Origin: Fusobacteriia bacterium 4572_74
Lineage (GTDB): Bacteria > Fusobacteriota > Fusobacteriia > Fusobacteriales > Fusobacteriaceae
DNA: 33,630 bases
Direction: 5' to 3'
Assembly (NCBI GenBank): GCA_002084825.1
Contig: NBMF01000001.1
Coordinates: 1 to 33,630, forward strand
Made by a program: the position numbers and the translations under genes. The stretch's first letter is position 1; the number at the start of each line of letters is the position of its first letter. Shown piece after piece: positions 8,925 through 33,630 of this stretch. The notes beneath the pieces were generated by a model that had not been told where the DNA came from, did not search any database, and worked only from the letters and a program-made list of their open reading frames with translations.

Positions 8925-9944
8925 ATGAAAGGAATAATAAATGCTCTAAAGGATGAAGTAGCTATTAGCTTAACTTCGGTAACTAGTGTAAAAGAATTAG
9001 AAGATCTAAAGATAGAGATTTTGGGGAAAAAAGGTAAATTGACAGATATCATGAAAGGTATGAGAAATTTATCTAAGGAAGAAAGACCTGTTATTGGTCA
9101 ATTAGCTAATGAAGTCAGGGATTTTATTACAAATGAAATCGAAACTAAGATGACTGAGCTAAAGGATATAGAAAAAACAGAAAGAATGAATAATGAAACT
9201 ATAGATGTTAGTTTACCAGGAAGGGAAACAGGAACTGGTAGATTACATCCTATAACAGAAACTATGGATTTCTTAAAAAATATATTTATAGAGATGGGAT
9301 TTGATGTAGCAGCAGGGCCGGAATTAGAGACTACATTTAATAACTTTGATGCATTAAATATACCAGAAACTCATCCATCGAGAGATTTACAGGATACTTT
9401 CTATATTGATGATAATACAGTATTAAGAACACATACATCACCTGTACAAATTAGATATATGCAAAATAAAACAGCACCATTTAGGATGGTCTGTCCAGGA
9501 AAGGTATATAGATCTGATTATGATGTATCTCATACACCTATGTTCCACCAAATGGAAGGATTGATGGTAGGAGAAGATATATCATTTGCTAATTTAAAAG
9601 CAATCTTAACAGAATTTGTAAACAAGGTATTTGGAGAAACTAACGTAAGGTTTAGACCTCATTTTTTCCCATTCACAGAACCTTCAGCAGAGATGGACGT
9701 AGAATGTGTAATTTGTAAAGGAAAAGGTTGTAGACTTTGTAAAAATACAGGTTGGTTAGAAATAATGGGTTGCGGAATGGTAGATCCTGAAGTATTAAAA
9801 AGTGTAAATTATGATGCAGATGAAATAAGTGGATTTGCATTTGGAATGGGAATAGAAAGAATTGCGATGCTAAGACACGGTATAGATGACCTAAGAGCAT
9901 TTTATGACAATGATATGAGATTCTTAAAGCAGTTTAACTTTTAA
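8925..9944 (+). CDS. pheS: Phenylalanyl-tRNA synthetase alpha subunit
   Basis: PheS is the catalytic subunit of the alpha2-beta2 enzyme that charges tRNA-Phe. The 339 residues begin with the coiled-coil tRNA-binding arm (about residues 1-90). The class II catalytic domain follows, with the motif-2 region FRMVCPGKVYRSDYD and its HTPMFHQMEG continuation, the cysteine-containing loop VECVICKGKGCRLC, and motif 3 GFAFGMGIERIAML near the end. The start has AGGAGG upstream. No T-box specifier structure was recognisable in the ~140-base leader. pheT follows after an unusually long gap with three hairpins. A tRNA-Phe gene is present elsewhere in the window. Confidence 0.97.
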   Translation: MKGIINALKDEVAISLTSVTSVKELEDLKIEILGKKGKLTDIMKGMRNLSKEERPVIGQLANEVRDFITNEIETKMTELKDIEKTERMNNETIDVSLPGRETGTGRLHPITETMDFLKNIFIEMGFDVAAGPELETTFNNFDALNIPETHPSRDLQDTFYIDDNTVLRTHTSPVQIRYMQNKTAPFRMVCPGKVYRSDYDVSHTPMFHQMEGLMVGEDISFANLKAILTEFVNKVFGETNVRFRPHFFPFTEPSAEMDVECVICKGKGCRLCKNTGWLEIMGCGMVDPEVLKSVNYDADEISGFAFGMGIERIAMLRHGIDDLRAFYDNDMRFLKQFNF

Positions 9945-9989: not shown

Positions 9990-10082
9990 ACAACTCTTTC
10001 CTTGTTGTCGTTTACTCTTTACTAAAGAGCAAACTATTGCTAATTATTTTAGCTTTGGTTTCACTTTTTTAAAGTGGAAACC
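9990..10082 (+). promoter_or_regulatory. Three-hairpin intergenic region between pheS and pheT
   Basis: Within the 170-base gap three stem-loops can be drawn in series. They are ACAAC/GTTGT (9990-9994 with 10004-10008), GTTTaCTCTTT/AAAGAGcAAAC (10010-10020 with 10024-10034), and GGTTTCACTTT/AAAGTGGAAACC (10057-10067 with 10071-10082, one bulge). The last ends just before the pheT ribosome-binding region. No U-tract terminator is present. A regulatory or processing role is inferred only. Confidence 0.45.
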
Positions 10083-10114
10083 TAGGAGGAAAAGTTAATA
10101 ATTTGGAGGAAAAA

Positions 10115-12496
10115 ATGTTAATATCTTTAGAATGGTTAAAAGAATATGTAGAGATAAATGAAGATGTTAAAGAGCTTGAAAATGCCCTAACTATGATTGG
10201 ACAAGAAGTTGAGGCAATAGAAGAGCAAGGACAACATCTAGACAATGTAGTTGTAGGACATATTGTAGAATATGGACAACATCCTGATGCTGATAAATTA
10301 TCACTATTAAAGGTAAATGTAGGGGAAGAAACTTCATTACAAATAATTTGTGGAGCTCCTAATCATAAATTAGGAGACAAAGTAATAGTAGCCAAAATAG
10401 GAGCTGTTTTACCTGGAAACTTTAAGATAAAGAAATCTAAAATAAGGGGAGTAGAATCTCAAGGGATGCTTTGTTCAGAGGTAGAATTAGGAATGGGTAC
10501 AGATGGTGATGGAATTGTTATCCTATCTGAAGATGCACCTATCGGAAAAGATATAAAAACATATTTAGGATTAGATGACGTAATTTTTGAATTAGAAATT
10601 ACACCTAATAGACCTGATTGTTTATCTCACATTGGTATCGCAAGGGAAGTAGCAGCTTATTATGATAGAAAGGTAAAATACCCTACATCTGATCTCAGAA
10701 CTATAACTGGACCAGCTGGAATTGTTGTGAATATTGTTGATGATAAAAGATGTACTAGATATAGCACTAGAATATTGAAAAACGTAAAGGTGGAAGAGTC
10801 ACCAGAATGGTTAAAGAGAAGATTGAAAGCTATTGGACTTAGACCAATAAATAACATTGTAGATGTAACTAACTATATTATGTTTGAATATAATCAGCCT
10901 ATGCATGCTTTTGACCACTCTAAATTAGATGGTTCAAAAATAATTGTGAGAGAAGCTAAAAAAGGTGAAAAAATCATTACTTTAGACGGTGAAGAAAGGG
11001 AATTAAATAACTCAGAATTAGTAATAGCTGATGAGGCAAAAGCTGTAGCAATAGCTGGAATTATGGGTGGACAAAACTCAGAGGTAGATAAGAATACTAC
11101 TGATATATTATTGGAAGTAGCATATTTTACTCCTGAAAATATAAGAAAAACAGCTAAGGAATTAGGGTTATTTTCTGACGCTTCATATAGATTTGAAAGA
11201 GGAATAGACAGAGATAATACTTTAGTTGTACTAGAAAGAGCATCATCTCTGATTCAGTCTATAACTAATTGTGAAGTTGTAGGAGAATATACAGATGTAT
11301 ATTCAGATCCTTATATTTCTAGAGAAGTTTCTTTAGATATCAATAAATTAAATAAATTTGTAGGCAAGGAAATAGAACTAGATACAGTAGGGAAAATCTT
11401 GAATAGCTTAAATATGCAGATAAATAATAGAGGGGAAAATAAAATTTCTGTAACTCCGCCACCATATAGAAATGATATAACTAGATCGGCAGATTTGTAT
11501 GAAGAGATTATTAGAATGTATGGTTTTGAAAATATTGAAGATAAAATGCCAATAGAAAATATCAAAGCTGGTGTAGTAGATGAAGAATTTCAAACTACCG
11601 ATACTTCTAAAAAACATCTGAGAGACATGGGATTACAAGAAGTTATAAACTATAGCTTTATTCCTAGAGGAATTTTAGAAAAATTAAAGATAGAAGTAGA
11701 GACTATAGATATTAAAAATCCTCTTAATGAAGATATGGTTACACTGAGGCCTACTTTGATGTATGGATTACTTACTAATATTAGGGATAATTTCAATAGA
11801 AATATAAATGATCTGAAGATATTTGAAGTATCTAGAACGTTTACTAAAGCAGAAACTTTAGCTGATGAAATTGTAAAAGTAGGAATAGCTTTAGCTGGTA
11901 GAGATGAAAGAAATCTATGGGATGCAAAGCCTGAAGCATATGATTTTTATGACTTGAAGGGATATGTAGAAAGTTACTTAAAAGATATGGGAATGACTAG
12001 ATATCAATTGAAAAGAACTGAAAATAAAAGTTACCATCCTGGTAGAGCAGTAGATATCTTAATAGGAAGAGATTATATTGGAACTTTTGGAGAGATCCAT
12101 CCCGATATAGCGGAAGCTATGTCTATCTCAAGGGAAAGAATATATTTAGCGGAGTTAGAATTAGCTAAGATAGTGAAATATGGAAAAACTGCAATAAAAT
12201 ACGAAAAGATAGTAAAATATCCAGCAGTAAATAGAGACTTAGCTATCTTAATGGATAGAGATAAATTAGTAGGAGATATGGTAGGAGATATTAAAAAATC
12301 TTCAAATATTATTGAAAGTGTAAATTTATTTGATATCTATGAAGGTGAAAAAGTAGAGGCAGATAAAAAATCAGTAGCTATTAATATAGTACTTAGAAAA
12401 ACAACAGGAACTTTGGAAGAAAATGAAGTAACTGCAGCAATCGATAAGATCTTAGGACTTATCAAGAAGAAGTATCAAGGTGAAATCAGACAATAG
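10115..12496 (+). CDS. pheT: Phenylalanyl-tRNA synthetase beta subunit
   Basis: PheT is the larger, non-catalytic subunit that binds and edits tRNA-Phe. The order is an EMAP-II-like tRNA-binding domain (VVVGHIVEYGQHPDADKLS...GAPN, about residues 40-150), the B3/B4 editing domain (ending around IAGIMGGQNSEV), B5 (EIIRMYGFENIEDKMP), the catalytic-like core, and a C-terminal anticodon-binding FDX-ACB domain (YPAVNRDLAILMDRD). The chosen start is ATG at 10115, giving MLISLEWLKEYVEIN. Its ribosome-binding site GGAGG (10105-10109) is well placed, whereas an upstream in-frame TTG at 10103 would overlap it. The 793-residue length is normal, and a strong terminator follows. Confidence 0.97.
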   Translation: MLISLEWLKEYVEINEDVKELENALTMIGQEVEAIEEQGQHLDNVVVGHIVEYGQHPDADKLSLLKVNVGEETSLQIICGAPNHKLGDKVIVAKIGAVLPGNFKIKKSKIRGVESQGMLCSEVELGMGTDGDGIVILSEDAPIGKDIKTYLGLDDVIFELEITPNRPDCLSHIGIAREVAAYYDRKVKYPTSDLRTITGPAGIVVNIVDDKRCTRYSTRILKNVKVEESPEWLKRRLKAIGLRPINNIVDVTNYIMFEYNQPMHAFDHSKLDGSKIIVREAKKGEKIITLDGEERELNNSELVIADEAKAVAIAGIMGGQNSEVDKNTTDILLEVAYFTPENIRKTAKELGLFSDASYRFERGIDRDNTLVVLERASSLIQSITNCEVVGEYTDVYSDPYISREVSLDINKLNKFVGKEIELDTVGKILNSLNMQINNRGENKISVTPPPYRNDITRSADLYEEIIRMYGFENIEDKMPIENIKAGVVDEEFQTTDTSKKHLRDMGLQEVINYSFIPRGILEKLKIEVETIDIKNPLNEDMVTLRPTLMYGLLTNIRDNFNRNINDLKIFEVSRTFTKAETLADEIVKVGIALAGRDERNLWDAKPEAYDFYDLKGYVESYLKDMGMTRYQLKRTENKSYHPGRAVDILIGRDYIGTFGEIHPDIAEAMSISRERIYLAELELAKIVKYGKTAIKYEKIVKYPAVNRDLAILMDRDKLVGDMVGDIKKSSNIIESVNLFDIYEGEKVEADKKSVAINIVLRKTTGTLEENEVTAAIDKILGLIKKKYQGEIRQ

Positions 12497-23710: not shown

Positions 23711-23801
23711 TTTTTTTAGTAGAAGATTGAGTTTTATAAAGATTGAAAAAGTTTGGAAATTATGATATTGTTTTTAACAGATATAAAAACAAGTAATTCC
23801 A

Positions 23802-23888
23802 TATAATCTTTTAAATATGCTAAAAGAGTATCTACTAGGAGAGCAAAAAATCTTCTTTCTATGGGCGCACATGTGTGCCCTTTTTTTT
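23802..23888 (+). promoter_or_regulatory. Leader with internal terminator upstream of the EamA gene
   Basis: A good -10, TATAAT (23802-23807), with no clear -35, is followed about 55 bases later by an intrinsic terminator. The terminator stem is GGGCGCACATGTGTGCCC (23863-23880) followed by eight Ts (23881-23888). It lies only ~33 bases before the EamA start codon and cannot belong to nadC if the TATAAT is real. The arrangement suggests transcription attenuation or a small separate RNA. Confidence 0.6.
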
Positions 23889-32301: not shown

Positions 32302-32833
32302 GGTATACCTTGAAAATGATGAAGTCGTAGATATAAATAGGGATATAAAGGCTAAATATAGGATAAAAACAGATAGTGAGATCAGTGTAGATGAATATCA
32401 CAATATTATCTATGATTCAGTTCTTTCAAAATCGTATTTTTTATTGTCTAAACGTGATTATACAGCGAGGGAGCTCCTGCAAAAATTGAGAATGAAATAT
32501 AAGAGAAGTTCAGTAGTAGAAGGGGAACTCCAAAAAGTAATCTCTAAATTATCTGAGTTAGGGTACTTAGATGATTATAGTTATGCTGAATTTTATATAA
32601 GTTCAAAAAAAAGTTTAGGTAGAAAGAGGGTAGAGTACGAACTTCATCTAAAAGGAATAGACTCTTCCATCATAGACAGTATCTATGGGGAGGAGGAGGT
32701 GGATGAAAAGAAGATGATATCGGATTTACTCCATAAGGTAAAAAATAAAGAGAAGAACAAACAGGTTGCCTATTTTATGAGAAGAGGATTTAAATTAGGG
32801 GATATATTGGATGTATTGAAAGGATTAGACTAA
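32273..32833 (+). CDS. recX: Regulatory protein RecX
   Basis: RecX binds RecA filaments and limits their growth. The 186-residue protein has the family's three-helix repeats: [42 protein letters not shown] and [15 protein letters not shown]. Its position overlapping the end of recA by 29 bases is the classical recA-recX arrangement, suggesting coupled expression. The ATG at 32273 is preceded by a purine-rich stretch (GAGGAAAAGG) ten bases upstream. The gene itself appears intact despite the truncated recA, and its end lies inside the terminator stem. Confidence 0.9.
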
Positions 32834-32851
32834 AGAGTTTAATCCTTTTTT
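32822..32851 (+). terminator. Terminator of recA-recX
   Basis: GGATTAGACT (32822-32831) pairs with AGTTTAATCC (32836-32845), one G-U pair, AAAG loop, then six Ts. It overlaps the last codons of recX. Confidence 0.85.
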
Positions 32852-32853
32852 AG

Positions 32854-32996
32854 TTTACTCTTCCTTTTTATGGTGTTTTCAATGATTATTGAAATTAAGC
32901 TTATAAAATCTTAATTTACAAATGTTGACTTCGTAAAAGAAACCGAAGCGAGAATGATTAGCTATTTTAAAGGAAACACCTTAAAAAAGAGTAAGT
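32854..32996. repeat. Long imperfect inverted repeat enclosing two hairpins (MITE or structured RNA candidate)
   Basis: About 25 bp at 32854-32880 (TTTACTCTT...GGTGTTTTC) are repeated inverted at 32972-32996 (GGAAACACC...AAGAGTAAG). Inside are two further hairpins: AAATTAAG/CTTAATTT (32892-32899 with 32910-32917) and CTTCG/CGAAG (32929-32933 with 32944-32948). The whole could fold as a cloverleaf-like structure. No transposase or open frame is inside. The two arms differ by a few bases and a 3-base gap. Confidence 0.6.
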
Positions 32997-33032
32997 TTAT
33001 TATAGTGGGGGTTTTGGATGGGGGGAGAATAT

Positions 33033-33256
33033 ATGGGAAAGACGAAAAGTTATGAATGGTTAAAGAAAAAATGAAATATTTGATGAGAGCTATAAGGGAT
33101 AAAATTCCTCAGGGCGGGTTAGAAGAAATGTGGAAGTATTCTATATTGGACATGAATTTAAATGGGAAAGGTTTTGAGATAATAAAAAAATCTAAAAAAT
33201 TACTGGAAAAAGTTGAGGCGGAGTTAGAGAATATAGAAAAAATAAGCTTTAATTAA
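33033..33256 (+). CDS. Small hypothetical protein with apparent frameshift
   Basis: An ATG at 33033 with a strong ribosome-binding site (GGGGGGAG) starts MGKTKSYEWLKKK, then TGA at 33072. In another frame, directly overlapping, MKYLMRAIRDKIPQGGLEEM continues to 33256. The switch lies in the run AAG AAA AAA TGA, where one extra A, or a -1 ribosomal slip on the A run, would join both parts into a charged, helical protein of about 74 residues. Without the shift, the second part would start at 33056 with no ribosome-binding site. The product is not recognised; the end (LLEKVEAELENIEK) looks like a short coiled coil. Confidence 0.45.
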
Positions 33257-33285
33257 CTTTTAGTTTTAAAAAATAGGAGGTTTTT

Positions 33286-33630
33286 ATGAAAAAATTATTA
33301 GTAATGATATTCATAATGATATTTAGTATTGGTTTTAGTGAAGAAAAACTTGTAGGTATTAGAGAATTTGATGGAAACTTGAGATTTGGAGATGAATTTG
33401 AAAAAATTATTTTAATTCGCCCTAATAATTTTGCGATTATTATTGGGAAGAGTGAAATATATACTATATATTATGATATTTTATTTCATTCTATGTTGTT
33501 TAAAAGTGGAGAAGAAGAGTTAAAATTTGAAAAAGCTACAACATTTATAGGGGAATCAAGTTTGTATGATGTTTATAAAGTGAGGGAAGATATTGGGGTA
33601 GTTTTGATGACGGTAGGAATGGGTAAAGAA
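33286..33630 (+). CDS. Secreted hypothetical protein, partial at the window edge
   Basis: An ATG at 33286 with AGGAGG upstream begins a signal peptide (MKKLLVMIFIMIFSIGFS, cleavage likely just before EEK). A mixed sequence follows, LVGIREFDGNLRFGDEFEKIILIRP and onward, open to the last base of the window (115 codons visible). There is no lipobox cysteine. No family was recognised. It follows the small frameshifted gene after 29 bases and may be in the same transcript. Confidence 0.7.
   Translation, partial: MKKLLVMIFIMIFSIGFSEEKLVGIREFDGNLRFGDEFEKIILIRPNNFAIIIGKSEIYTIYYDILFHSMLFKSGEEELKFEKATTFIGESSLYDVYKVREDIGVVLMTVGMGKE

Follow-up and report, generated by a model that had tools for sequence, protein, structure and literature searches.

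What is the cloverleaf-like element that stands behind recX in Fusobacteriia bacterium 4572_74, and what kind of system does it belong to? The window, that is the whole stretch of DNA analysed here (33,630 nucleotides), comes from a genome that is 63% complete (G000) and is one of eight genomes of its genus (G000 to G007), which we infer to be Psychrilyobacter. The original prediction, made from the sequence alone, had described an outer stem and two hairpins at 32854-32996, just after the recX terminator and with no coding capacity, and had suggested either a miniature inverted-repeat transposon or a structured RNA as possible explanations. The description is borne out, coordinates included. 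The RNA fold of 32854-32996 reaches -31.1 kcal/mol against a mean of -19.43 (sd 3.04) for dinucleotide shuffles (z -3.84, 0 of 200 as good), DNA folding parameters give z -3.53 (again 0 of 200), and the predicted structure is a mismatched outer stem around two hairpins, at 32889-32921 and 32923-32953. No ORF of at least 60 aa overlaps these positions, and a terminator scan places the end of the recX unit immediately upstream, with a similar terminator recognizable by eye after recX in G002, G003, G006 and G007. Comparison with the rest of the family sets the limits of the repeat proper at 32857 (ACTCTTCC) and 32992 (AAAGAGT). The features of the window that concern us are as follows (R1 is the covariance model described below).

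32818-32849, plus strand: recX intrinsic terminator, 14 pairs followed by a T run, outside the repeat and just upstream of it (terminator scan)
32854-32862/32987-32995, 32866-32870/32982-32986 and 32872-32880/32972-32980: the three blocks of the outer stem (RNA fold)
32857-32874, plus strand: core motif ACTCTTCCTTTTTATGGT, at the 5' end of the repeat (degenerate motif search allowing up to one mismatch; copies by blastn in G002, G003, G004, G006 and G007)
32876-32928, plus strand: nested AT-rich hairpin module of the N1 type in the arm-1 loop (same module in the G004:C108 copy)
32929-32948, plus strand: arm 1, right side, including a small CTTCG/CGAAG hairpin (fold; module common to other copies)
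32948-32962, plus strand: putative remnant of arm 2, GCGAGAATGATTAGC (compared by eye with arm 2 of clean copies)
32972-32995, plus strand: 3' side of the outer stem (fold), unlike the 3' end of the family
9993-10095, minus strand: three-armed copy of the same element (R1 74.8 bits, E 2.9e-16 in the window)

The further genome copies that the original prediction had proposed to look for do exist. A 171-base query at E<=0.001 returned only itself in its own genome, where shorter queries bring out the family, and a 261-base query recovered the orthologous site in G002 (86%) together with further places in G002, G003, G004, G006 and G007. The core motif ACTCTTCCTTYYTATRGT, allowing at most one mismatch, is present at 15, 0, 56, 28, 45, 1, 10 and 15 places in G000 to G007, respectively, against 0, 0, 1, 0, 0, 1, 0 and 0 for the reversed motif. 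A clean copy is about 100 bp long and consists of an outer stem (ACTCYTCC...GGAARGAGT) enclosing three hairpin arms, the first of the GTTTCTC...GAGAAAC type, the second small, and the third of the GTTTTCTC...GAGAAAAC type. Second hairpin kinds are often lodged in the arm loops (N1 at 35 and N2 at 13 distinct places of the fetched loci, by loose patterns). The window itself holds a second, textbook copy, at 9993-10095, whose fold (z -5.96) was equalled by none of 200 shuffles and which lies between the ORFs 8925-9944 and 10103-12496, which we take from their sequences to be pheS and pheT. Four copies (L103, L106, L107 and L109) run at their 3' side into another shared module (CACGATCGTCATTGTAGAAAC and variants), which suggests that larger composite repeats may exist. 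A second cloverleaf-like family, ACCCTCTC...GAGAGGGT, was seen in L195 (G004:C9) and in the flanks of L268, at a site where G000 has the ACTC type.

We aligned 19 un-nested copies chosen among the loci fetched: of a set of 20, 17 were used (the irregular L232, L233 and L234 were excluded), and L030 and L247 were added. In this alignment 91.5% of the cells are paired, against 86.1% after shuffling and 47.5-55.1% when the structure is slid, and cells with changes on both sides of a pair number 45, against 15.6 shuffled (0 of 500) and 1 to 6 slid. Two of the five measures of covariation are weak, namely the number of pairs with a two-sided change (12 against 8.0, reached in 6 of 500 shuffles) and that of further pair types, which is no better than shuffled (24 against 24.0, 306 of 500); moreover, the copies are paralogues in one genus, and related rows inflate the counts. 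From copy to copy, two-sided changes preserve the pairing of the arms. The covariance model R1 was built from these 19 ORF-free copies; its counts in genomes take matches on either strand, so that a palindromic copy may count twice, and cover a scored part of the candidates.

The flagged element carries the 5' core motif and the arm-1 sequence of this family and is 91% identical over 98 bp to a copy in G004 (G004:C108, E 1.1e-33). R1 gives it only 13.7 bits (E 0.32), and it does not match as a whole copy; judging from the similarity of its 5' two thirds, it belongs to the family, and arm 3 has apparently been lost. The covariation that marks the family arms does not extend to the flagged copy: compared with its orthologue in G002, 34 of 45 pairs are unchanged, three are kept by a one-sided change, eight are broken and none shows a two-sided change. 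There is no sign of its fold being kept. The element is a decayed mosaic copy of a dispersed Psychrilyobacter cloverleaf DNA repeat that has lost the family fold. The orthologue in G002 occupies the same place after recX, and in G007 a variant whose 3' part is similar stands further downstream, ahead of a gene resembling the one that follows the element in G002. The 66-aa small gene at 33056-33256, which has no Pfam match, resembles by eye the C-terminal end of that longer G002 gene and may be a remnant of a longer gene. Searched against plasmids, the flagged stretch found nothing beyond short matches in three records.

Which machinery could have multiplied such repeats? A candidate is offered by a small endonuclease. 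The eight genomes contain 19 matches to PF04480 (DUF559, Vsr-like endonuclease), seven of which lie in one shared neighbourhood and look by eye to be vertically inherited. An R1 match (E<0.01) is present near none of these seven, and within about 200 bp of eight of the 12 others (L259, L260, L261, L262, L267, L268 with E 0.0085, L271 and L273); L264, L272, L275 and L277 have none nearby. In L267, R1 matches both an arm-1 half (1363-1448) and an arm-3 half (1821-1890), and the ORF (1447-1821) fills exactly the interval between them. In the orthologous pair L261/L262 and in L273 it lies between two inverted halves of the arm-3 type; R1 finds both halves in L261 (E 8e-4 and 7e-5) and one each in L262 and L273, whose far halves were recognized by eye (R1 E 4.8 and 1.3). 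The genome of the window has such an ORF of its own (G000:C45, L260), with an intact frame, an arm-1 half with N1 and, by eye, a worn 3' end. DUF559 ORFs thus adjoin or sit inside elements of this family. Repeats are also present in G005 (one R1 match) and G006 (six), where the only small DUF559 ORF is the vertically placed one, and overall copies free of an ORF far outnumber those that bear one.

An alignment of eleven chosen DUF559 proteins shows E33, D61, E72, D74 and H78 to be invariant, and we take these to be the catalytic residues. The linked ORF scores above the PF04480 cut-off and carries the conserved acidic and His residues of EDxHD/Vsr-like nucleases. The element-borne L267 product matches the solved chain 3hrl, an endonuclease-like protein (E 1.4e-17), a likeness that concerns the protein level only, the repeat context lying outside the comparison. 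A DUF559 protein is assigned to the EDxHD homing endonuclease family in an excerpt of PMC9403480, and an excerpt of PMC12907096 links DUF559 to Vsr.

The association is also seen beyond the genus. Among 98 genomes of Fusobacteriota, R1 (E<=1e-4) has matches in 11, which fall in five of 29 genera. Each of these 11 belongs to the set of 14 genomes in which a small (<200 aa) DUF559 ORF occurs, against none of the 84 others, and the five genera fall within the six that have such an ORF (hypergeometric 5e-5). The sole R1 match of G086 lies 35 bp from its interrupted DUF559 gene, one match of G013 lies 57 bp from its DUF559, and G011 has one just upstream of one of its two DUF559 genes (L279). G038 has its R1 matches at places other than its DUF559, and G001, G025 and G078 possess a small DUF559 ORF and no R1 match. 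In one locus of G038 (L281) the DUF559 gene lies between two near-identical repeat units (CACCTCTC...GAGAGGG).

Is the arrangement confined to this phylum? The L267 protein matched 34 plasmid records, 21 of which were analysed, the other 13 being near relatives of fetched records or coming from human-associated species. We looked for an inverted repeat, scoring at least 29, that has one side in each of the 250-bp flanks of the ORF; the test was designed after the first six plasmid loci had been inspected, and the threshold was chosen after the values had been seen. Gene ends were taken from the tblastn match for six plasmid records with no listed gene and for L335, which sits inside a longer annotated gene. 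Such a repeat brackets the DUF559 ORF in 12 of 21 plasmid loci, against three of 54 other genes of the fetched loci (Fisher 3e-6), one of these three being an IS4 transposase gene adjoining L328. Scores stay below 29 in nine of the 21 plasmid loci and in seven of 13 Fusobacteriota DUF559 loci; the remaining six of the latter reach it, and eight of the 13 exceed all windows of their own locus, against none of the six vertically placed loci tested (L270, whose contig ends after the ORF, was left out). The strength of a lone hairpin beside DUF559 is no useful criterion, as strong hairpins, probably terminators, stand next to the vertically placed genes too, and only the bracketing inverted repeat sets DUF559 loci apart. 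Bracketing is common among the plasmid DUF559 ORFs of Deinococcus, cyanobacteria and alphaproteobacteria. In Deinococcus proteolyticus (L323) the order is outer stem, hairpin, ORF, hairpin, outer stem, and in L323, L327, L336 and L343, all on Deinococcus plasmids, DUF559 genes occupy differing positions of the hpa operon. None of the bracketed plasmid loci is matched by R1; they resemble the Fusobacteriota elements in layout and not in repeat sequence.

The reading that we favour, and consider rather probable, is that of a dispersed DNA repeat spread by the nuclease that some of its copies encode. The ORF-bearing copy would be the autonomous form; its DUF559 product would nick or cut DNA, probably at or near hairpins, and repair would then copy the element into the break, much as a homing endonuclease spreads its intron. 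Copies with no ORF, including both copies in the window, would be non-autonomous derivatives. Homing-like copying into a cut would explain the missing target duplication (see below), the enclosed ORF and the majority of ORF-free copies. Beyond the genus, we suggest more tentatively, as a proposal that may well prove too broad, that small free-standing DUF559 genes supply the mobility nuclease for a widespread and so far unnamed class of cloverleaf DNA elements, laid out as outer stem, hairpin, nuclease ORF, hairpin and outer stem and present in Fusobacteriota, Deinococcota, Cyanobacteriota and Pseudomonadota, and that many abundant intergenic palindromic repeats could be their ORF-less derivatives, inserted by a repair-based, homing-like route that leaves no target duplication.

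The association between repeat and DUF559 is an observation, and that the nuclease moves the repeats is the conjectural part: the ORF may instead be a passenger or invader. According to this alternative, DUF559 ORFs invade the repeats as a safe insertion site, and the repeats spread by other means. It is a fair rival, although we hold it to be unlikely. The large excess of ORF-free copies speaks for it, as do the variable place of the ORF within the element (in L267 it separates arm 1 from arm 3; in L261, L262 and L273 it is flanked by two inverted halves of the arm-3 type) and the naming of a DUF559 protein as a homing endonuclease in the excerpt of PMC9403480. It accounts poorly for the bracketing of the gene by unrelated repeat sequences in other phyla, and for the restriction of R1 matches in the phylum to genomes with a small DUF559 ORF.

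The spread of the repeat by the nuclease must also be weighed against a conventional MITE, that is a non-autonomous descendant of some DDE or Y1 transposon, dependent for its movement on the transposase of the latter. Here the original prediction stood in part. The repeat is short and non-coding, has terminal inverted repeats and many dispersed copies, and lies between genes (94 of 95 copies with enough flank are outside long ORFs). Sites are occupied in some species and vacant in others. Between atpB and atpE, G000 has a short copy, G003, G005, G006 and G007 have the site with no copy, and the place is taken by a short A-rich spacer in G001 and by an unrelated insertion in G002. At the G000:C69 site, the comparison took in four genomes, G007 offering no anchor and G001 and G003 lying outside it: the copy is missing in G002, G005 and G006, and in G004 a palindromic element of a different kind stands there. 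Between rluD and rnhB, G001 and G005 have short spacers, G002 a piece of the element and G004 other repeats. The G007 site carries an element together with a DUF559 ORF, and that of G000 a remnant of DUF559 (G006 could not be anchored). In G038, a relative from another family, three units, each about 220 bp long, share 97-99% identity but lie in surroundings that show no alignment to one another; a cloverleaf lies inside this unit (about 1457-1672 of L300, L309 and L317), which has further inverted ends. The repeat is multi-copy and intergenic, with occupied and unoccupied orthologous sites and small hairpins nested in its arm loops.

What the MITE explanation lacks is the signature of transposition and, among the two transposase families searched, a parent. 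Over lengths of 2-9 bp, the flanks of 20 copies gave one exact 2-bp match (2.5 expected) and none of 3 bp or more; flank identity at k=9 exceeds the permuted level (p 0.007; eight lengths were compared), without any exact copy, and the orthologous-site comparisons gave no clean insertion boundary. Y1 (PF01797, the RAYT family) occurs in one of the eight genomes, as a broken gene with stops in G005, which has a single element match, and DDE_Tnp_1 has nine matches in five of the eight. An R1 match is near none of these ten loci, and we rejected both families as movers; the search covered these two families, in a set where three element-rich genomes are only 63-81% complete. We regard a conventional MITE as improbable.

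Could the repeat act in RNA? A BOX- or ERIC-like element serving RNA processing or stability inside operons would fit the strong folds, the covariation at family level, and the position of 54 of the 58 copies with both neighbours assigned between codirectional genes, a count taken with no genomic background. Nevertheless, in this setting the element is in sense orientation 30 times and in antisense 24 times (p 0.50), atpB-atpE occupancy differs between species, and the 19-copy alignment shows no preference for G.U over A.C (33 against 32 cells, 13 of the A.C cells coming from one column pair; six columns with only G.U and seven with only A.C), which is the strand-specific pairing expected of a structured RNA. 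Since a selected RNA should prefer G.U, equal numbers point to DNA. By these signs the repeat would act at the DNA and not the RNA level, and we regard an mRNA element as decidedly improbable.

Nor did known RNAs turn up. The Rfam scan of the window has no family at gathering score at the flagged place, the matches at that score being four tRNAs and one purine riboswitch, all elsewhere (the riboswitch at 23779-23881, 50.3 bits); a permissive scan of the flagged region and of five clean-copy loci gave only matches below gathering score. Intron families are likewise missing at gathering score in the window, and up to E 1 in the five clean-copy loci. As to a promoter for an RNA of its own, the three promoter-like sites found in 32700-33300 are all on the minus strand. 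The structured RNA of the original prediction finds no support in its general form, and in its most specific form, an RNA or cis-regulator of recX or of the downstream gene, it is scarcely credible: the stable fold, the orthologue in G002 and the variant in G007 are outweighed by the many unrelated copies elsewhere, by the eight broken pairs with no compensatory change against G002, by the lack of an Rfam match at gathering score at this place, and by the failure to find an element directly after recX in the stretches read of G003, G005, G006 and G007.

To our knowledge, how short bacterial palindromic repeats multiply is understood for few families. If DUF559 does drive the repeats, a family named for its unknown function would acquire one, and a mover would be named for a large number of orphan repeats between genes. 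The proposal can be tested directly, as the ORF, its element and unoccupied sites are all at hand. In the literature, none of the titles and abstract beginnings among the matches listed, where subscription journals are thinly covered, names these repeats or links DUF559 to palindromic repeats. A related case comes from Legionella, where, in an excerpt of PMC12308824, repeated segments with a transposase and DUF559 are described as recombination hotspots; these too have a DUF559 gene in a multi-copy segment, but they also carry a transposase, and the likeness concerns the segments without their ends.

With the homing endonuclease genes of group I introns and inteins, including EDxHD/Vsr-like ones, the elements described here share a small nuclease ORF inside a structured element; the carrier, however, is a dispersed intergenic palindrome, and no intron family was found in the Rfam scans described above. 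MITEs are similarly short, non-coding, dispersed and bounded by inverted termini, but here there is no target-site duplication and no parent transposon in the two families searched. BOX and ERIC sequences are modular, intergenic, hairpin-forming and present in many copies, whereas here element halves also flank a nuclease ORF and hairpins are nested in the arm loops. In REPIN-RAYT systems, REP palindromes are mobilized in trans by a Y1 transposase whose gene is itself flanked by the repeats. Both systems have numerous short palindromes between genes and a single-gene nuclease that goes with them and is itself flanked by the repeats; the nuclease here is DUF559 instead of Y1, and the repeat is a three-armed cloverleaf where the REPIN is a REP doublet.
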